Positions 1,002 through 9,776 of a DNA stretch of 30,069 nt are shown one piece after another (the stretch's first letter is position 1; every line of letters starts with the position of its first letter). The position numbers and the translations under genes were made by a program. Source of the stretch: a virus. Where the stretch lies: positions 1-30,069 of IMG/VR virus record IMGVR_UViG_3300010885_022088; one strand, given 5' to 3'. Below the pieces are notes generated by a model, which saw only the letters and a program-made list of their open reading frames with translations, made no database searches and had not been told where the DNA came from.

Positions 1002-1009
1002 CATAAATA
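1002..1009 (+). promoter_or_regulatory. late-promoter-like element before the curli block
   Basis: CATAAATA, one mismatch from the T4 late box TATAAATA, ends only 5 bases before the ATG at 1015. Transcription from it would begin at or next to the start codon, giving a leaderless or nearly leaderless message. No Shine-Dalgarno sequence is visible before that ATG. A weak sigma70 alternative (TTGTCA near 956) lies upstream. Confidence 0.4.
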
Positions 1010-1014
1010 TAAGC

Positions 1015-1302
1015 ATGGGATACGATGTTATATTCAAACTGATTGGTGACGTAGGGTTCCCCATCGCAGCAGCGTTGTTGGGTGGTGTCTTCGTGTACTT
1101 TGTTATTAACTACATCCTAGAAAGCGTCCTCAAAGCCATCAAAGGAATGCAGGGTATTATTATGGGACTCGATAATCGAGTCAAAACAATGAACCATGAT
1201 ATTATCCGTGTTGATGCCGTAGTAAGTTCTGCATTAGGTCTTAAGCCTGATCTTGAAAGAATTGCACGAGCAGACGGGAAGAACGATGCTAGGAGAGACT
1301 AA
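1015..1302 (+). CDS. small membrane protein, holin-like (first of a pair)
   Basis: 95 residues. An amphipathic start precedes one strong membrane span at about residues 14-35 (GFPIAAALLGG through FVINYI), followed by a charged helical tail with regular hydrophobic spacing. It aligns by eye with the next gene (shared GFPI-AA, RV-D-I-R and final VV-AL patterns), so the two look like tandem paralogues. Size and topology suit a holin, an anchor or an inner-membrane accessory of the secretion genes that follow; I cannot choose. There is no visible ribosome-binding site, and the stop overlaps the next start (TAATG). Confidence 0.75.
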   Translation: MGYDVIFKLIGDVGFPIAAALLGGVFVYFVINYILESVLKAIKGMQGIIMGLDNRVKTMNHDIIRVDAVVSSALGLKPDLERIARADGKNDARRD

Positions 1303-1565
1303 TGTCACCCGATCTAATTGCTCAATTTGTGAAGCAATATGGATTCCCAATTGTTGCCGCAGTCGGTATGGGATATTTCGTATTCTTCATCTATAAGTTT
1401 GTTACAGATAAATTAATGCCGTTGATTGGCGAAACCAATGTTATTTTAATCGCACTGATTGATCGTGTTCGCATGTTGGACAATGACCTCATTCGGTTGA
1501 ACCAGAAGGTGAATGTAGTACTACAGATAAAGGAAGATCACAGTGATTATAAGCCTAAAAATTGA
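1302..1565 (+). CDS. small membrane protein, holin-like (second of a pair)
   Basis: 87 residues with the same plan as the preceding protein: one membrane span near residues 14-33 (GFPIVAAVGMG through FIYKFV), then a helical tail with DRVRMLDNDLIRLNQKV. A strong AGGAG lies 6 bases before the ATG, unlike the first gene. It ends in a TTGA overlap with the frame that leads into CsgF. Phage genomes often carry single-span proteins of this size as holins, but its position ahead of csgF/csgG also allows an inner-membrane role in curli-type export. Confidence 0.75.
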   Translation: MSPDLIAQFVKQYGFPIVAAVGMGYFVFFIYKFVTDKLMPLIGETNVILIALIDRVRMLDNDLIRLNQKVNVVLQIKEDHSDYKPKN

Positions 1566-1636
1566 AATCATCAAAATCTTCAAACTTGAATTCGATCTTT
1601 CTTCTGAAAATAATAAAAAGAAAAAGGAAGAAGAAG

Positions 1637-2086
1637 TTGCTAAGAAAGAGCCTGATACTAGCAAGCCTACTGTTTCTAAGTAGTCCTGCACATTCCACAG
1701 AAATTGTTCAGCAATTCAAAAGCCCTTCATTTAGTGGAGTTGGCACTTCTGCACATTGGTTAACAATTGAAAATCAAGAAGCAACCAGACGTAAAACAAT
1801 TCAAGACAAAATTGAATCAGATTTGAAAGCAGCAGTTCAAGCTGAGCAAAATTCAATCATGAACAAATTCATGACCAATTTGCAGTCTCGTATATATTCT
1901 CAACTAGCCAAACAACTGACAGATAGTCTTTTCGGTCCAAACGCACAGGATTCAGGAACCTTTGAGCTTGATGGAAATACCGTTGCATTTCAAAAAGACT
2001 TAAATGGTATAACACTGACAATAACACAGCCAGATGGTACATCAACTTCAATCACCATTCCAACAGCAGGGTCATTTAAATTCTAA
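1637..2086 (+). CDS. csgF: CsgF-like curli assembly factor
   Basis: The mature N-terminus after the signal peptide (VQQFKSPSFSG) matches the CsgF segment that inserts into the CsgG pore (F-R-N-P-N-F-G-G in E. coli). The C-terminal half has the CsgF-type beta region ending in TSTSITIP. Established role: CsgF caps the CsgG pore and helps nucleate the curli fibre outside the cell. I place the start at TTG 1637, preceded by AGGAAGAAGAAG, giving 149 residues and a classic signal peptide (LRKSLILASLLFLSSPAHS). An in-frame TTG at 1562 overlapping the previous stop would add 25 Lys-rich residues. The stop overlaps the csgG start (TAATG). Confidence 0.8.
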   Translation: MLRKSLILASLLFLSSPAHSTEIVQQFKSPSFSGVGTSAHWLTIENQEATRRKTIQDKIESDLKAAVQAEQNSIMNKFMTNLQSRIYSQLAKQLTDSLFGPNAQDSGTFELDGNTVAFQKDLNGITLTITQPDGTSTSITIPTAGSFKF

Positions 2087-2853
2087 TGAAAAGCATAGGT
2101 TTAGCATTATTACTATTGCTAGGTGGTTGTGCAACCCCTGCTCTACATGACTTCAACAGAAATTTACCTGTTGTTGATAGTGTGGCATATAAGCCACTGT
2201 TAGATATTAGACCACCACAAATGCCAGCAGTAGTAGCTGTGTATGACTTTCCTGATCTTACAGGTCAAAGAAAAGATAAAGATGGTGTAGCGACATTTTC
2301 AACTTCCGTAACTCAAGGCGGAACAAGTTTATTAATTGATGCATTGAAAAATGCTGGACGTGGAAAGTGGTTTAGAGTTGTCGAACGTCAAAGAATAGAC
2401 GATCTTACTAAAGAACGTCAAATTGTTCGTCAAACTCGTGAAGAATACCAAGGTGAAGGCGCTAATAAGCTTGAACCTTTAGTCTTTGCAGGAATAATGA
2501 TTCAAGGTGGCATTATTGGTTACGATACCAATATTGTTACTGGTGGTGCTGGAGCCAGATATCTTGGTATCGGTTCAAGCACAAAATATCGCAAAGACCA
2601 AGTAACAGTAGCACTAAGGGCGGTTTCAACAAACACTGGCGAAGTCATTATGAACGTACAGGTTTCAAAAACAATCCTTTCAACTGGTACAGACTTTACA
2701 TTATTTAAATTTATTGATGTAGGAACCAAACTTGTTGAAACAGAAGTAGGTATAACCGAAAATGAAGCAAACACGATTGCGGTTAAGATGACAATTGAAG
2801 CGGCAGTAGTCGAACTAATCAAACAAGGCAGAATTAAGGGATATTGGAGTTAA
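2086..2853 (+). CDS. csgG: CsgG-like curli export pore lipoprotein
   Basis: 255 residues; E. coli CsgG has 277. Lipoprotein signal ending LGGC with the acylated Cys at residue 15. The central region matches CsgG closely by eye: TGQ..., FSTSV, RWF-like KWFRVVERQ, IIGYDTN, GGAGARYLGIG, YRKDQVTVALR, TGEVIMNV and SKTILS. Established role: a nonameric outer-membrane channel for unfolded curli subunits. The constriction loop keeps the Phe (residue 71) but lacks the Tyr of the E. coli pore (that stretch reads QRKDKDGVATF), and the C-terminal tail beyond the last helix is missing. It is translationally coupled to csgF. Confidence 0.92.
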   Translation: MKSIGLALLLLLGGCATPALHDFNRNLPVVDSVAYKPLLDIRPPQMPAVVAVYDFPDLTGQRKDKDGVATFSTSVTQGGTSLLIDALKNAGRGKWFRVVERQRIDDLTKERQIVRQTREEYQGEGANKLEPLVFAGIMIQGGIIGYDTNIVTGGAGARYLGIGSSTKYRKDQVTVALRAVSTNTGEVIMNVQVSKTILSTGTDFTLFKFIDVGTKLVETEVGITENEANTIAVKMTIEAAVVELIKQGRIKGYWS

Positions 2854-2858
2854 AAGAT

Positions 2859-3548
2859 ATGTTAAAGAAAATCAAGATGTTATCACTCTTGATGGTCATG
2901 ATTTCATCCACAGCGATTGCAAATCCAAACGCAATCTATATTGAGCAAGTAGGCGAAACAAGTAAGATAACAGTAACGCAAACAGGCCAAGATAATAAGA
3001 TCGGTTCTGAAAATAATAGATTTAATCTTGAAGGAAACTCACAAGATATCACTATTACTCAAACTGGTTCAAACAACATTCTTACTGGACGTATAACAAA
3101 TGCATCTGGTGTGAATTATAACCTTAATATTACTGGTAATTCTAACGAAAATATCTTCAACACAGGCAGTAGTGCTTCTGTTGCAGGTACAACCCAAAAT
3201 ATGACAATTACTGGTGATAACAATAAAACAACATTTAATCATGGTGATTATTCATCAGCAACAAATGCTCTTCTGAATTATGTAATCTCAGGAGACTATA
3301 ATACATTACTGGCAAATATCAATACAGATGATGTTACCAATACAATAAACGTAACTGGTGATCAAAATACCATTACAACTACTCAAACTGGTTATGCTGG
3401 TAAGAACATCGATATGAACGTACTAGGTTCATTGAATACTATTAATATCGATCAGAAGAGTACATTGAATGTGGATACGATTAAACTTAATACTACTGCT
3501 ACTGGTGGTATTATTAACATCACACAATGCAATAGCGGCAACTGCTAA
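2859..3548 (+). CDS. secreted curlin-repeat (CsgA/CsgB-like) protein
   Basis: 229 residues from ATG 2859, preceded by GGAG at 9 bases. The longer frame from TTG 2844 would spoil the signal peptide (KKIKMLSLLMVMISSTAIA). The mature protein is a run of Asn/Thr/Gly/Gln-rich repeats of the curlin type: IEQVG-x-x-xKITVTQTG-x-xNKI, ITQTGSNN, ITGDNNKT, VTGDQNTI-TTTQTG. Such repeats form amyloid strand-turn-strand units. It follows csgF and csgG directly, so it is the likely export substrate. The last residues CNSGNC hold two Cys, unusual for a curlin. Its 3' 80 bases overlap the next gene in another frame. Confidence 0.85.
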   Translation: MLKKIKMLSLLMVMISSTAIANPNAIYIEQVGETSKITVTQTGQDNKIGSENNRFNLEGNSQDITITQTGSNNILTGRITNASGVNYNLNITGNSNENIFNTGSSASVAGTTQNMTITGDNNKTTFNHGDYSSATNALLNYVISGDYNTLLANINTDDVTNTINVTGDQNTITTTQTGYAGKNIDMNVLGSLNTINIDQKSTLNVDTIKLNTTATGGIINITQCNSGNC

Positions 3549-4530
3549 TATTGGCAGTGTTACTGAGCTAAGAGGACCAAGCGAGGTTGTTAGGAAAACA
3601 CAAAAAATTCCTACACAGCCTCGCTTACCTGTGCAAAAAATGGATAACGTGCGTACTGGTAATGGTCGCATCGAAATAACATTTGTTGACAACACTAAGG
3701 TTAAACTCACAGAACAATCAAAGCTTGTGATCGATGATTTTGTTTATGATGGCGATGCTAGTAAAGGAAAGATGAATCTTCGATTTGCTTCAGGTACTGC
3801 TAGGTTCGTAACTGGTTCCATGGGTAAGAAAGGTATCAACCTTAAAACTCCTACTGCTACCATAGCGGTTAGAGGAACAGATTTCACAACAACCGTAGAT
3901 GAAATGGGTAAGAGCCTGTTTATTCTTCTACCAGAAGAAAACGGTCATGTTGGGCAGATTACTGTGTCGAATAGTGCAGGGACTGTTATTTTAGATAAAG
4001 CCTTTCAATCAACTATTGTTCTGACGGCTGATACACCACCAACAAAACCTGTCATTCTCAACCTAGACCTAAGCATGATCGACAATATGTTGATCGTGTC
4101 TCCACCAGATGTGGTTAAACAACAGGATATAGTTGATAAAAGAGCCAATATTCTTGATCTATCAGAACTAGATATTGACTTCCTAAAGAACGATGAACTT
4201 GAAAAGAATGATATCAACGACAATGATCTTAGTATCAATAGACTTGATGTAAACTTTTTTGAGGATGATTTAACATATTCTGAAGGTGGAGAAGTTACTA
4301 AAGATAATATTCGATTGATTGGTACAAATTTTGGTCTTGATAGCACAACAAAGATATACACATTTGTTGAACAGGTTACTATCCAGTTTACTAGAATTCA
4401 AAACAATACGGCATCGATCCTTACAGAAAAAACATCAAACCTAAATATATCATTCACTGATAATGGAAAAACAAATATTATTCAATTAAACGATGGCGGG
4501 AGTAGCATAATTGTTAGTCAACAAAATTAA
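3469..4530 (+). CDS. secreted FecR-domain protein
   Basis: 353 residues. A clean signal peptide (LNLILLLLVVLLTSHNAIA) is encoded inside the 3' end of the curlin gene in another frame. Residues about 27-180 form a FecR domain: GSVTELRG, VRTGNGRIEITFVDNTKVKLTEQS, then GTARFVTG and TPTATIAVRGTDFT. The C-terminal half is acidic and Asn-rich without a domain I recognise. FecR domains usually sit in the periplasm and pass ligand or envelope signals to membrane partners. Bacterial genomes often pair a secreted FecR-domain protein with a CHASE2 cyclase, as here. The stop overlaps the cyclase start by 20 bases. Confidence 0.85.
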   Translation: MWIRLNLILLLLVVLLTSHNAIAATANIGSVTELRGPSEVVRKTQKIPTQPRLPVQKMDNVRTGNGRIEITFVDNTKVKLTEQSKLVIDDFVYDGDASKGKMNLRFASGTARFVTGSMGKKGINLKTPTATIAVRGTDFTTTVDEMGKSLFILLPEENGHVGQITVSNSAGTVILDKAFQSTIVLTADTPPTKPVILNLDLSMIDNMLIVSPPDVVKQQDIVDKRANILDLSELDIDFLKNDELEKNDINDNDLSINRLDVNFFEDDLTYSEGGEVTKDNIRLIGTNFGLDSTTKIYTFVEQVTIQFTRIQNNTASILTEKTSNLNISFTDNGKTNIIQLNDGGSSIIVSQQN

Positions 4531-6565
4531 AAAGACATTATTGTCCCCATGGTTAGCTTTACTTACTTTTTCTCTTCTGATCACATTGAAGGTAGCTGAT
4601 CCTCGCCTTATCGAATCAACCCGCTTGAATTTCTACGATAACCTGATGGTAGCAGAGCAGCAAGTTGTTAGTACTGATGTTGTATTGCTCAATATTTCCG
4701 AAAAAACTTTGGAAAAGTATGGGCAGTATCCATTCTCAAGAGATGTTTATGCTAAGGTTATTAATGACGCTTACAGCAGCGGTGCTGGCTTAGTCGGTAC
4801 TACCATACTATATCCTGAGCCAGATCGCTTCAATCATGACACCGATCTACAACAATCACTTTTATCTAATCCTGTAGTCTTATCTCAAGTTGCTAGTGAA
4901 AAGTGCGCTAGAGATAACTCAAACACAAAGCGTACAGGTGTAGCAGTTGTTGGTGACGGCAAAGCCACCGATTATCTACCACAATATAAATGCATTCTTG
5001 ATAACGTAGCTACGGTCCAAAATAAAGCTTCTGGGATTGGCGTAACATCAACCCTTCCAGAAGTTGACGGCGTTGTTCGTCGTATTCCTCTTTTGGCAAT
5101 GTCAAATAATGAGTATTACCCATCTTTTGCTCTTGAGATGCTTCGAAATGCGGCTGGTGATACATCATATCAAGCAAAGATAAATGAGACAGGTGTTGAG
5201 GCTGTTCGTGTCCCTCAGTACGATACAATTTCAACAGACCCTTATAGTCGAGTGTTTGTAAATTGGAACAAGGCATTTCAGGAGTATGATGTTGGTTCCC
5301 CATTACCATCTCTTCAAAATAAGTTTGTAATTCTTGGCGTAACTGCTGAAGGAATTCAGAACCCTGTTCCAACTCCTGTGGGAGCAAAGTCTCCACAGTA
5401 TATTCAAGCTTCATTATTGCAGACCCTTCTTGACGGATCAAGCGTTTCCATTCCGTCATGGGTTCCTTTAGTGGAATGGGCTGGTTTCCTAACCCTTGGC
5501 ATTTTGGTGATTGGTCTTTCACGTGTACGCTTCTCATTCGTTTGGGTAGGTGGATTATTAGCAGCGGCTGTATATGCACCATACTATGCGATGGAACATT
5601 ATAAAATTCTACTTGATTCAAGTTTCATTATTGGATCAATGATTCTTATATACCTACATGTCAACATCGTCAATTATATCTCAGAATTCCTTCAGAAGCA
5701 ACAAATCAAGAAACAGTTTGGTACATATCTGTCACCAGACCTTGTTGCACAGTTGCAAAAGCAACCAGACTTGCTACAGCTAGGTGGAACAGAGCAAAAG
5801 CTCTCTATCATGTTCACAGACGTTCGTGGCTTCACAACAATCTCAGAACACTATGGAAGAGACGTTCAAGGTTTAACTAAGATCATGAATCGCTACATGA
5901 CTGCCATGACAAAGGCAATCCTAGAGAACAAAGGAACGCTTGATAAGTATATCGGTGACGCTCAGATGGCATTCTGGAATGCACCACTAAACAATGAACA
6001 ACATGCTCTAGATGCTGTGAAGACTGCATTCCAGATGCTAAACTCACTAAAGGAATTTAATGATGAAGTTACAAGAGAAGGTGTACCCGCTTTTGGGATG
6101 GGTCTTGGTATTAACACTGCCACTGTGGTTGTTGGTAATATGGGCAGTGATCAGCGTTTTGACTATACTTGCTTGGGGGATGGCGTTAATCTGGCTTCTC
6201 GTTTGGAAGGTCAATCCAAGCCTTATGGAGTCAAACTCATTATTGGGCCAGAAACTGCCGAATTGGTTAGGGATGTATACCAAATAATTGAACTGGACCT
6301 TATTGCTGTTAAGGGCAAAACAGAACCAGTAAAGATTTATACTGTGGTTGAAAAGAAAGATAGTGCAGCAGAAAAAGCTCATAATAAATTTTTAAATTAT
6401 TATCGTACTGGTGAATGGGGTAGAGCTTTAGCTATGGCTTATGAAATGGGACCAGTGTGGAAAGGTGAACTTTCTGGCTATTACAACGCTATGATAGATC
6501 GCATGAATGAGCAAAAGTCTGCACCAAATAATTGGGACGGTGTTTACCGTGCTACCAGTAAATGA
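4511..6565 (+). CDS. CHASE2-domain class III adenylate cyclase
   Basis: 684 residues from TTG 4511 (GGGAG 8 bases upstream). An N-terminal membrane helix (residues about 10-27) is followed by a periplasmic CHASE2 sensor (about 30-310), three membrane spans (about 318-390), then a cytoplasmic class III cyclase domain (about 425-620). Catalytic residues are present: metal-binding D437 (FTDVRGFT) and D483 (DKYIGDA), K479 and T553 as ATP-selecting positions, and N560 and R564 for the transition state. It should therefore make cAMP from ATP in response to an envelope signal, plausibly through the adjacent FecR protein. A helical tail of about 60 residues follows the catalytic domain. An intact, membrane-anchored cyclase is very unusual in a phage. 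Confidence 0.92.
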   Translation: MLVNKIKKTLLSPWLALLTFSLLITLKVADPRLIESTRLNFYDNLMVAEQQVVSTDVVLLNISEKTLEKYGQYPFSRDVYAKVINDAYSSGAGLVGTTILYPEPDRFNHDTDLQQSLLSNPVVLSQVASEKCARDNSNTKRTGVAVVGDGKATDYLPQYKCILDNVATVQNKASGIGVTSTLPEVDGVVRRIPLLAMSNNEYYPSFALEMLRNAAGDTSYQAKINETGVEAVRVPQYDTISTDPYSRVFVNWNKAFQEYDVGSPLPSLQNKFVILGVTAEGIQNPVPTPVGAKSPQYIQASLLQTLLDGSSVSIPSWVPLVEWAGFLTLGILVIGLSRVRFSFVWVGGLLAAAVYAPYYAMEHYKILLDSSFIIGSMILIYLHVNIVNYISEFLQKQQIKKQFGTYLSPDLVAQLQKQPDLLQLGGTEQKLSIMFTDVRGFTTISEHYGRDVQGLTKIMNRYMTAMTKAILENKGTLDKYIGDAQMAFWNAPLNNEQHALDAVKTAFQMLNSLKEFNDEVTREGVPAFGMGLGINTATVVVGNMGSDQRFDYTCLGDGVNLASRLEGQSKPYGVKLIIGPETAELVRDVYQIIELDLIAVKGKTEPVKIYTVVEKKDSAAEKAHNKFLNYYRTGEWGRALAMAYEMGPVWKGELSGYYNAMIDRMNEQKSAPNNWDGVYRATSK

Positions 6566-6756
6566 CTTGGTGGATGATTGCTTACATTTTTTATAATGGA
6601 GATTTAAAGGCAAGGATTGTTCACGTACATCCATCTAAGTATGAGTGTATGATGGACGGTAAAGAACAGACAACATTTTATAGCAAGCTTAGAGGCACTG
6701 TATTATATTACTGTATGTATGAAAGATATCCTGAAATATTTCCAAAAGAAAAATGA
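6562..6756 (+). CDS. small hypothetical protein at the end of the curli block
   Basis: 64 residues starting inside the cyclase stop (ATGA), so probably translated by coupling. It begins MTWWMIAYIFYNGDLKARI, a possible short membrane-facing beta or helix segment, then a Cys-containing polar region. I do not recognise it. The pattern of an aromatic start followed by H-P-S-K-x-x-C resembles small periplasmic hypotheticals, but that is only an impression. Confidence 0.55.
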   Translation: MTWWMIAYIFYNGDLKARIVHVHPSKYECMMDGKEQTTFYSKLRGTVLYYCMYERYPEIFPKEK

Positions 6757-7139: not shown

Positions 7140-8384
7140 TTACTTATTGATACGAATGATACCATCTTTATCAACTGGATTGGCAAATTTACCAGCTTCT
7201 TCGTTCTTAATGCCCTTAAGCTGTAGACCAGACACAACTCCATGTCCCTTCTTGCCTTCAGTTCTGCCGATTGATTCATGACGGTCAAATGTGTTGTCAT
7301 CCTTATCGCCATTTACGATTGGATAACGAGTGCCTGTCTTAACGTCTTCAACGTGTGTTGGATGTGGAATTTTCTTACCACGGTGATAAACCATCGCAAC
7401 CACGTGGCCTCTCTTCAAGGTATCTACAGCAGCCTTATCGTTTGATTCAGCGTGATCCGTACCTGTGTGTGATAGGGTAAGGTGATAGTTCTTTGGTAGA
7501 TCAGGATGGCCTACACGATTAGAGAGCTTGGTATAGTCATAGAATTGAGCATCTGGATGACGATCAAATAGTTGTGGAGCATGTTTTTCCCATGAGATAT
7601 CTGAAGTCACGTTTAGACGCACACCGGGCTTCATGCCCTTCTTAGCGGCATTCTTGACGTGATTGCCGATTTCGTTGTCTAGGATACGTGCAGCATGTTC
7701 AGGATGCTTTGCAATGAAGTGTGTTCTGATAACCTTGCTTGATAGAGCAGCATCTGGGTACTGACGATTGCCACCAGCAGTAAGACCAAGGCAACCCCTC
7801 TTACATTCAGTTGATGCCTTAACGCATGAGTTAAAGCCATGTAGACCTGATGTTGTATGTGGAGCTAGTGTTAGACCTTTGGTTAGAACGCCCTCACCAG
7901 AAGATTTTTCTGTCTTCATGTTTTCGCCCAAAAGGGGAAACTTGCTCTTGAAACCACGTGACTTAGCAAAATCGCTTAGAACCTTATGTGATTCTGAAAG
8001 CTTTGCTCTTGATTCCTTTGGAGTTTCATTTGCCATTGATTTGAATGTTGATTGAAAGCCTTCACCAATACGCTTATGGACGTTTCCCGCTGGAATGTCT
8101 CTACGGCCCATATCAATAAGATTACGTGTCTTAGGCAAATTCATTGAAGGATGTGCAGCTTCATCAGGATTAAATTTTGGCTGGCTTACATCCATAACAT
8201 CTCTTTTACGTTCCTCTTCTTCAATCTGATCATAATACTCAGCAGCTTCGTTGAGAAGCTTGGTAGGATCAGAAGGACCACTAAGGTGGAAAAGGAAGTT
8301 GTGAAGATTTTCTGGGACACCAGGAAGTGTTGTAAGTGCAGTGCTACCAGTTGCTTCAGTCATGAAAGATTTAAAATTAATCAT
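7140..8384 (-). CDS. GP88-type domain protein with capsid-targeting-like N-terminus
   Basis: 414 residues. Residues 1-11 (MINFKSFMTEA) resemble the T4 capsid-targeting peptide (MKTYQEFIAEA), cut by the prohead protease after Glu. From about residue 165 to 400 it matches, from memory, the phage gene-product-88 family: a Cys cluster at 187, 194 and 198 (SCVKASTECKRGC), VTSDISWE, QFYDYTKLSNR, YHLTLSHTG, and a C-terminal VNGDKDDNTFDRHESIG followed by VVSGLQLKG. The spaced Cys could bind metal or an Fe-S centre. A perfect late promoter lies 40 bases upstream and a terminator downstream. I infer a virion-packaged, possibly injected protein; the biochemical activity is unknown. Confidence 0.75.
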   Translation of the reverse strand: MINFKSFMTEATGSTALTTLPGVPENLHNFLFHLSGPSDPTKLLNEAAEYYDQIEEEERKRDVMDVSQPKFNPDEAAHPSMNLPKTRNLIDMGRRDIPAGNVHKRIGEGFQSTFKSMANETPKESRAKLSESHKVLSDFAKSRGFKSKFPLLGENMKTEKSSGEGVLTKGLTLAPHTTSGLHGFNSCVKASTECKRGCLGLTAGGNRQYPDAALSSKVIRTHFIAKHPEHAARILDNEIGNHVKNAAKKGMKPGVRLNVTSDISWEKHAPQLFDRHPDAQFYDYTKLSNRVGHPDLPKNYHLTLSHTGTDHAESNDKAAVDTLKRGHVVAMVYHRGKKIPHPTHVEDVKTGTRYPIVNGDKDDNTFDRHESIGRTEGKKGHGVVSGLQLKGIKNEEAGKFANPVDKDGIIRINK

Positions 8385-8434: not shown

Positions 8435-9304
8435 TTAACGGTTGCCGTATTGTTTCTTTCTAGCATCTCTATACGCACGTTCAACTTCATTACTGAAGCC
8501 ATGATCACGTGCTACAATATGTTCTTGACCAGTAACAGGGTGTTTCCATACTCCAAGATTTTTTTGCTGTCTATAATCAGCAGGGGAATTGCCTGTATTG
8601 CCATGATAATCAAGAAACTTTTGTACAAGCGGATGTTGTTCAATATGATCCATATGTCTTTCGTGATTATCAGTACTTTTCCAATGATTACCAATATTAC
8701 GATTATGAAAACGTAGGAGAGTGCTTGTAAAATCATCATGAGTTATACCCTGTGGATACTCTTTTGTTTTGGTTAGCTTCTTCCAATCCCCAGCTTTAAT
8801 ATCACGTGCATGACCTATTTTAGTCCACTGATGATCCTTATCATCATGGTCAACAAGTGGTGGAAAAATGCCTTCATCATTTGTTTCGAAATGACCATGA
8901 CCTTTGTCTGTCAATGTGCGATAGTTACTGTTCACCCAATGATCCCCACCTTCAGCATGATTTTGCATTGCACCAAGGTGAAGCCCATCATGTTCTTTTG
9001 AATTGTGAAACCTGTCTAATGGGGAACGAATAGCAACCTTTGTGCCAACTTTCATAGGTACAATCTTCTTGTCTACAATGATATTCTCAGGCTCTGCATG
9101 TTGCATGTAAGCACGAGAAGAACCTTTAGGCATGTTACCTTCAATGCCTGTTTTTTCACCACGTGATGTAAGGTCTTTGATCTTATCAGCAAGTTGCTTT
9201 TGTTTAGTTTTTCTACTAGAACCTGTACGAACCACATCCTGAAGTTCTGGGTGGAGATTTTCAACAATAACATTGTCCATAAAATCTTTAAAATTGGTCA
9301 GCAT
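8435..9304 (-). CDS. His-rich basic protein with capsid-targeting-like N-terminus
   Basis: 289 residues. It starts MLTNFKDFMDNVIVEN, related to the N-termini of both neighbours (N-F-K-x-F-M) and to the T4 capsid-targeting peptide; a Glu occurs at residue 15. The remainder is rich in His, Lys and Asp (GHGHFETNDEG, WKSTDNHERHMDHIEQH) and ends with HIVARDHGFSNEVERAYRDARKK. I do not recognise the fold; the His/Asp clusters might bind metal or DNA. It starts 4 bases after the stop of the 9309-9776 gene and is probably read from the same late promoter. It is a probable internal virion protein, by inference only. Confidence 0.7.
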   Translation of the reverse strand: MLTNFKDFMDNVIVENLHPELQDVVRTGSSRKTKQKQLADKIKDLTSRGEKTGIEGNMPKGSSRAYMQHAEPENIIVDKKIVPMKVGTKVAIRSPLDRFHNSKEHDGLHLGAMQNHAEGGDHWVNSNYRTLTDKGHGHFETNDEGIFPPLVDHDDKDHQWTKIGHARDIKAGDWKKLTKTKEYPQGITHDDFTSTLLRFHNRNIGNHWKSTDNHERHMDHIEQHPLVQKFLDYHGNTGNSPADYRQQKNLGVWKHPVTGQEHIVARDHGFSNEVERAYRDARKKQYGNR

Positions 9305-9308
9305 TATA

Positions 9309-9776
9309 TTATACTTTCTGAATATTTGCGATTATGTGAGTATCACCTTTAAGTCTCGCTGCTACAATTCTATGATGACCATCTATAACATAATGCTTAT
9401 TGTTATGATGTAGTACTAAAATAGGATTTTCATCATTGATTTTTTCTTTTGCCTTTTTAGAATTCCAATCAGTAAAGGCTTGTGATGGGATTAATTTTTT
9501 TATATCAATTCGTGTTTTATTTGGTTCATTAATTTTTGGATCAAATACGTCTGTGCCTCTTTCGGCCTTAGCTTTATATGCACTCATTCCAGTATAATCT
9601 GGTTTAGAACCGCTTATCAGTTTGTGTGATGGTGAAGACAACGCTTTATTCTGCATATAGCTTGGTGGTTGTTTTACCCAATCTTTTTTTGATTTGTCAG
9701 CTAATCGATCACCAAGCTTTAATGCTCTATCAATAGTTCTAGTAGCCTCATCAAAAAATTCTTTAAAAGTTTTCAT
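9309..9776 (-). CDS. ParB/Srx-like domain protein with capsid-targeting-like N-terminus
   Basis: 155 residues. The first 13 (MKTFKEFFDEATR) are the closest of the three to the T4 capsid-targeting peptide MKTYQEFIAEA. The C-terminal part (about 88-155) ends with a ParB/sulfiredoxin-like signature: KKLIPSQAF, PILVLHHNNKHYVIDGHHRIVAARLKG with D-G-H-H-R at 132-136. In that superfamily this segment binds or hydrolyses nucleotide, and several phage and toxin members are nucleases. GGAG lies 5 bases before the ATG and a near-perfect late promoter 23 bases upstream. I infer a packaged enzyme of ParB-like fold. Confidence 0.75.
   Translation of the reverse strand: MKTFKEFFDEATRTIDRALKLGDRLADKSKKDWVKQPPSYMQNKALSSPSHKLISGSKPDYTGMSAYKAKAERGTDVFDPKINEPNKTRIDIKKLIPSQAFTDWNSKKAKEKINDENPILVLHHNNKHYVIDGHHRIVAARLKGDTHIIANIQKV

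Follow-up and report, generated by a model that had tools for sequence, protein, structure and literature searches.

Curli-type (type VIII, T8SS) secretion genes have been described in phages before. Zaragoza-Solas et al. reported CsgF and CsgG (PMC7029224), and Wittmers et al. 2022 found CsgF, CsgG, CsgA-B, FecR and an adenylate cyclase in pelagiphages, with the viral curli genes being transcribed in ocean metatranscriptomes (PMC9599517). In the same report, one or two genes before the viral module were annotated as histidine kinases (PMC9599517). FecR and the cyclase have been stated in print to be absent from bacterial T8SS operons. Buchholz et al. 2022 proposed a gated pore or pinholin (PMC9004378). 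In Campylobacterota, FecR-domain genes cluster with CHASE2 cyclases (PMC9239204), and a CHASE2-deleted cyclase of S. meliloti makes cAMP constitutively, which identifies CHASE2 as a control domain (PMC5498481).

The stretch of DNA analysed here (the window) is the 30,069-base virus record IMGVR_UViG_3300010885_022088. A plus-strand block at 1015-6756 consists of eight ORFs, namely sm1, sm2, csgF, csgG, a curlin-like gene, fecR, a cyclase gene and orf64 (Table 1). An earlier note on this DNA had named these genes, apart from orf64, as one plus-strand run with nearly all members overlapping; ORF calls and a Pfam search of the window ORFs found all of them present, and neighbouring ORFs overlap throughout. 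Five tRNA genes lie to the left, and minus-strand phage genes to the right include an RNA ligase/tail-fibre attachment family member, an exonuclease and PhoH, which mark the window as a tailed phage with T4-like gene content. For orf64, a clear relative was seen in one locus only (L126, 77%). Three neighbouring minus-strand genes of the window (7140-8384, 8435-9304 and 9309-9776) begin with similar peptides, MINFKSFMTEATG, MLTNFKDFMDNV and MKTFKEFFDEATR, resembling the T4 capsid-targeting sequence, and may encode internal head proteins.

Table 1. Features of the block in the window (plus strand; positions of the whole stretch)
Feature	Position	Strand	Remarks
T4-type late promoter box CATAAATA	1002..1009	+	5 nt before sm1 ATG
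sm1	1015..1302	+	95 aa, single TM, charged C-terminal helix; phrog_18771
sm2	1302..1565	+	87-aa paralogue of sm1; phrog_18771
sm3	1543..1683	+	46-aa candidate ORF across sm2 end and csgF ORF start; motif LKIEIxKVFxLxF
csgF ORF	1562..2086	+	Pfam CsgF 9e-19; FxxPxF mature N-terminus kept
csgG	2086..2853	+	Lipoprotein, LGGC lipobox; predicted outer-membrane export pore; Pfam CsgG 3e-52
Secreted curlin-like repeat protein	2844..3548	+	Likely start ATG at 2859
Secreted FecR-domain protein	3469..4530	+	Pfam FecR 3e-15
Curlin-like terminal strand of FecR, SSIIVSQQN	4501..4527	+	Motif [ILVMF]x[ILVMF]xQ
Membrane CHASE2-class III adenylate cyclase	4511..6565	+	Pfam CHASE2 5e-37, class III cyclase 2e-19
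orf64	6562..6756	+	Small ORF

When gene order was compared with curli-bearing bacteria and csgG phages, as the note had proposed, csgF-csgG-curlin-fecR was kept on one strand in 72 of 73 related loci, a set in which a few loci share a contig or come from nearly identical ones. In 62/66 loci the cyclase gene follows downstream on the same strand. The full set with FecR and cyclase had been thought novel, which does not stand: the Pelagibacter phage HTVC008M and the Methylophilales phage Melnitz carry sm1, sm2, csgF, csgG, curlin, FecR and cyclase in order, and the module is published (PMC9599517, PMC7029224, PMC9004378). Like the pelagiphage/methylophage module (HTVC008M, Melnitz, pelagimyophages and HTVC023P-type podophages), the window has csgF and csgG adjacent, a curlin-repeat gene after csgG, FecR and then the cyclase, with sm1/sm2 upstream. 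However, its CsgG is 43-44% and its cyclase 37-38% identical, a second curlin gene between fecR and the cyclase gene is lacking, and its cyclase active site is complete, whereas that of Melnitz is not. With the canonical curli operon (E. coli csgBAC/csgDEFG), the window has CsgG, CsgF and a secreted curlin-repeat substrate in common, but it shows no CsgE and no csgD in the block, its curlin repeats are degenerate, and FecR and the CHASE2 cyclase are added. As in the Campylobacterota clusters, a FecR-domain envelope protein adjoins a CHASE2 cyclase, but neither a phosphodiesterase nor a TPR partner is present, and the pair is joined to a secretion pore (PMC9239204).

CsgG of the window can be aligned along its whole length with solved structures of E. 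coli CsgG (2e-47, residues 6-254). The constriction loop reads KDKDGVAT in the window and PYPASN in E. coli, from which we infer that selectivity might be affected. A comparison of CsgF with solved chains returned spurious helix-repeat matches only. Since sm3 spans the junction of sm2 and csgF and was found again in 41 loci (as 32 distinct proteins, with moderate constraint only), csgF probably does not start at 1562; its likely start is a TTG at 1637, followed by a predicted signal peptide. The secreted curlin-repeat protein of the note was borne out for the family, as 23/27 orthologues match Curlin_rpt (best 2e-9), but not for the window protein alone, which falls below the Pfam cut-off (E 0.21). 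Its AlphaFold2 model is beta-rich (18 strands, pLDDT 85), with no PDB match at E<=0.001, which counts against the export function favoured below. A lipobox and signal peptides are visible in the translations of the block, and csgG, curlin, fecR and cyclase are under purifying selection in the comparison of L121 with L123 (dN/dS 0.04-0.09).

The FecR protein is laid out as a signal peptide, the FecR domain, an acidic disordered linker (210-272) and a C-terminal beta domain, and its model resembles the PupR signalling domain 6ovk (E 5e-5), although model confidence is moderate (pLDDT 68), a point against the favoured function. The last strand resembles the curlin C-terminus. The tail motif lies within the last 16 residues in 34/38 FecR clusters, compared with 5.2% of internal windows as background and 3/29 other FecR-domain ORFs; this control is imperfect, as the anti-sigma architecture prevails among the control FecRs, and shared ancestry is not accounted for in the binomial test. 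The tail suggests a coupling of curlin to the CHASE2 cyclase. A role as iron-transport regulator was considered and rejected: a signal peptide is followed by the FecR domain, the cytoplasmic anti-sigma part and the transmembrane segment before that domain are absent, and the block holds no sigma-factor gene (FecI).

The gene for the cyclase overlaps fecR by 19 nt, an arrangement repeated in 17 loci. The window cyclase has all six catalytic residues (D437, K479, D483, D551, N560 and R564), that is, the two metal Asp, the adenine Lys/Asp, the Asn and the Arg of class III cyclases. Among 72 cyclase sequences, 39 retain the adenine Asp and 43 the Asn. In cyclases of the large phages (L145-L188) and of Melnitz (L002), the adenine-specifying Asp is replaced by Ser, Gly or Ala and the ribose Asn by Ser, while Lys, metal Asp and Arg are unchanged; these enzymes may have an altered product or have lost catalysis. 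Thus, cAMP synthesis may not be a shared output, which argues against the favoured explanation, as does the fact that no cAMP-binding protein was found in the 16 phage records searched, so that any cAMP would act via the host. PycC models match the window cyclase over the shared class III cyclase domain only, and a Pycsar cyclase was rejected, given the adenine-type Lys/Asp and a block without an effector. A defence system was likewise dismissed, the only matches being the generic ones to PycC and, for FecR, a marginal one to AbiEi.

The two small membrane proteins before csgF are present as the note had described, but form a separable unit. In four relatives lacking the csg genes (L112, L115, L117 and L125), sm1/sm2 are kept while csgG is absent from the whole record, and in some other relatives they lie beyond the cyclase gene on the opposite strand, where a separate TATAAATA precedes csgF, some 120 nt ahead of the conserved FxxPxF codons. 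Four different deletion junctions drop csgF-to-cyclase and spare sm1/sm2: a csgF stub fused to what in the window is the next gene after the block (L112, 10548-10763), a remnant joining the csgF start in frame to the cyclase end (L125, 4734-5120), a junction to a phosphoesterase-like ORF (L117, 10548-11486) and one at about 5600 in L115. No other genes of the block are as conserved as sm1 and sm2 (dN/dS about 0.01-0.08), and purifying selection on these two persists in relatives that have lost csgF-to-cyclase (0.01-0.06 for sm1, such pairs included). Obligatory membership in an export device was therefore rejected. By position, sm1/sm2 are probably the published 'histidine kinases' upstream of the viral module; for these single-TM proteins of 87-95 aa a Pfam search gave no kinase or ATPase domain match, and they were not taken as kinases, which affects the label and not module membership.

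In T4, the late promoter box sits at about -13 to -6. The sequence [CT]ATAAATA was found exactly 5 nt before the sm1 ATG in 17 loci including the window, with differing DNA further upstream, whereas no peak at this spacing was seen for a control box taken from the same composition class; in the window alone, the motif is no commoner than chance. Taken together with the T4 position, the spacing predicts a late, leaderless transcript starting at about the sm1 ATG, and the block is probably expressed late. For another gene (MTTFKDFL...), in L127 (5143) and L128 (5853), the distance from late box to ATG is likewise exactly 5 nt, and leaderless late genes may be general in that clade.

Scans of viral contigs yielded 27 CsgG loci and at least 589 sm1 loci, of which 80 were kept. 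Carriers of csgG include phage contigs of 212-372 kb, a size class for which the papers searched gave no report. Among 50,697 phage records, CsgG relatives occurred in HTVC008M, in four Melnitz isolates and in a 1.5-kb contig from a Salmonella-phage stock; the latter (OR851715.1, L004), filed as Salmonella phage, carries enterobacterial-type csgG and is probably host DNA in the stock. From the CsgG scan of bacterial genomes, 80 loci were kept, and the whole five-gene cassette lay beside csgG in 3 of about 76, so the idea that it is common there was rejected; order-level CsgF loci, at only 3.4 kb, are too short to inform on FecR/cyclase linkage. The bacterial carriers are Hyphomonas TMED17 (L034), where the cassette lies within a 705-kb contig, flanked left and right by bacterial genes, and two Caulobacteraceae MAGs (L032 and L033). 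Their cassettes have csgF-csgG-curlin-fecR-cyclase on one strand like the window, with CsgG 60-65% and cyclase 42-54% identical, but lack sm1/sm2 and have bacterial flanks; L032 and L033 hold two curlin genes, L034 a single one of double length. Over the cassette, 5.99 kb of L032 (9576-15514) and L033 (8412-14366) align at 87%, with no alignment of the flanks, which indicates that the cassette moves as a unit. A close cyclase was found in no more than these two among 149 Caulobacteraceae genomes. In the cyclase tree, the three bacterial cassettes fall outside the main phage group, but on long branches (support 80-92), and this placement does not fix the direction of transfer. Four further MAG contigs (L035, L036, L037 and L100, from Flavobacteriales, Sphingobacteriales, Planctomycetaceae and Pelagibacter) carry a phage-type cassette, in three cases together with sm1/sm2; these could be phage contigs assigned to the wrong bin. 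A recently captured host operon, raised in the note, does not fit this phage, because among phages the cassette is both old and widely distributed, even if versions of it occur in alphaproteobacteria.

The function we favour is a late remodelling of the infected cell's surface with feedback from the envelope to cAMP, and this explanation as a whole has, in our judgement, about an even chance of being correct, including that the block comprises two adjacent late units read through as a single operon in the window. The first unit (sm1-sm2-sm3, with the late box at the sm1 start codon) would provide small inner-membrane proteins kept for their own sake, and the second (csgF-csgG-curlin-fecR-cyclase) would be a mobile T8SS-like cassette related to the alphaproteobacterial chromosomal one. 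Late in infection, CsgG and CsgF would assemble into a pore in the outer membrane, through which the curlin-like beta-repeat protein would reach the cell surface. Secreted FecR, via its curlin-type terminal strand, might bind curlin, either at the pore or within the periplasm, and signal this binding to the cyclase through the periplasmic CHASE2 domain; the cAMP then made would act on the host's own receptor. The phage would probably benefit from a cell surface changed before lysis, by a block of superinfection or altered cell-cell contact. Gene identities, gene order, catalytic residues, the FecR fold and tail, late boxes, separability and mobility are shown by the analysis, while export, the contacts of FecR with curlin and CHASE2, cAMP output and benefit are inferred. 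This explanation is favoured because of the Pfam domain matches, the end-to-end CsgG alignment and the lipobox and signal peptides; because of the conserved order, fixed overlaps, purifying selection and late boxes; and because of the FecR tail and PupR-like fold, together with the Campylobacterota clusters (PMC9239204), the control by CHASE2 (PMC5498481) and the viral transcripts (PMC9599517). The note's idea of one device for export and sensing is supported by the conserved order, the overlaps, purifying selection, the complete cyclase site and the secreted FecR fold with its curlin-like tail. Loss of the whole cassette in some relatives counts against the favoured explanation.

A role in lysis, with CsgG-CsgF as a gated pore or pinholin and sm1/sm2 as a holin pair, so that the block sets lysis timing, extends the idea of Buchholz et al. 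2022 to sm1/sm2 (PMC9004378). The late promoter would fit, and sm1/sm2 weakly resemble holins in sequence: 16/22 members match the holin model phrog_4898 (best 2.7e-6), and a match to Pfam YvrJ is weak and sub-threshold. However, relatives keep sm1/sm2 under selection after losing csgFG, which are thus not needed for lysis, and the conserved curlin, FecR and cyclase would go unexplained. A GH19 lysin is not consistently near, and linkage of an endolysin to sm1 was rejected as inconsistent across loci. We consider this role unlikely.

Curlin fibres might instead make cells aggregate and so supply released virions with new hosts, as a form of sibling capture, in line with the full export set, the curlin-like substrate and an earlier report (PMC7029224). 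Melnitz-infected cultures showed no clumping (PMC9004378), which also counts against surface remodelling, and the window protein has only two canonical Q-x-G-x2-N repeats, making aggregation rather doubtful. Still less probable is an ungated CsgG that takes up nutrients or siderophores while FecR and the cyclase tune host metabolism via cAMP, as uptake was proposed in PMC7029224 and PMC9599517. CsgE (PF10627), unreported in the pelagiphage/methylophage module (PMC9599517), was not found in the window and 15 related records, which are possibly fragments; this agrees with an uptake pore and speaks against the favoured export, but the position of curlin is as conserved as that of csgG, and FecR has neither the anti-sigma and transmembrane parts of an iron regulator nor a sigma factor in the block. 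An assembly join, which the note had named as refuting its view, or decaying host DNA, for both of which the same five-gene order on alphaproteobacterial chromosomes might speak, is excluded for practical purposes by the order in 72/73 loci, the intact genes under purifying selection and the isolates HTVC008M and Melnitz carrying the set.

Beyond surface remodelling, the block could be a phage envelope-sensing circuit, in which the curlin strand of FecR binds the exported amyloid protein and gates the CHASE2 cyclase, turning the state of the pore into cAMP, with the whole travelling as a self-contained cassette among bacterial chromosomes and widely differing phages; this is speculative and improbable as a whole, and in the large-phage clade with altered active sites the output would perhaps be other than cAMP.

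New compared with published work are the five-gene cassette on three alphaproteobacterial contigs, the carriers of 212-372 kb, the separability of sm1/sm2, the late boxes and the FecR tail. The module is more widespread, mobile and conserved than published reports show, extending from pelagiphages and methylophages to a separate T4-like clade and to phage contigs of up to 372 kb. The published statement that FecR and the cyclase lie outside bacterial T8SS operons holds generally, with the alphaproteobacterial cassettes as exceptions. Natural deletion relatives show that sm1/sm2 can be parted from the export genes, which constrains the lysis hypothesis. The curlin-like FecR tail is a concrete candidate for a link of export to cAMP signalling that can be tested, and, while the phage of the window is uncultured, Melnitz and HTVC008M make the module testable.
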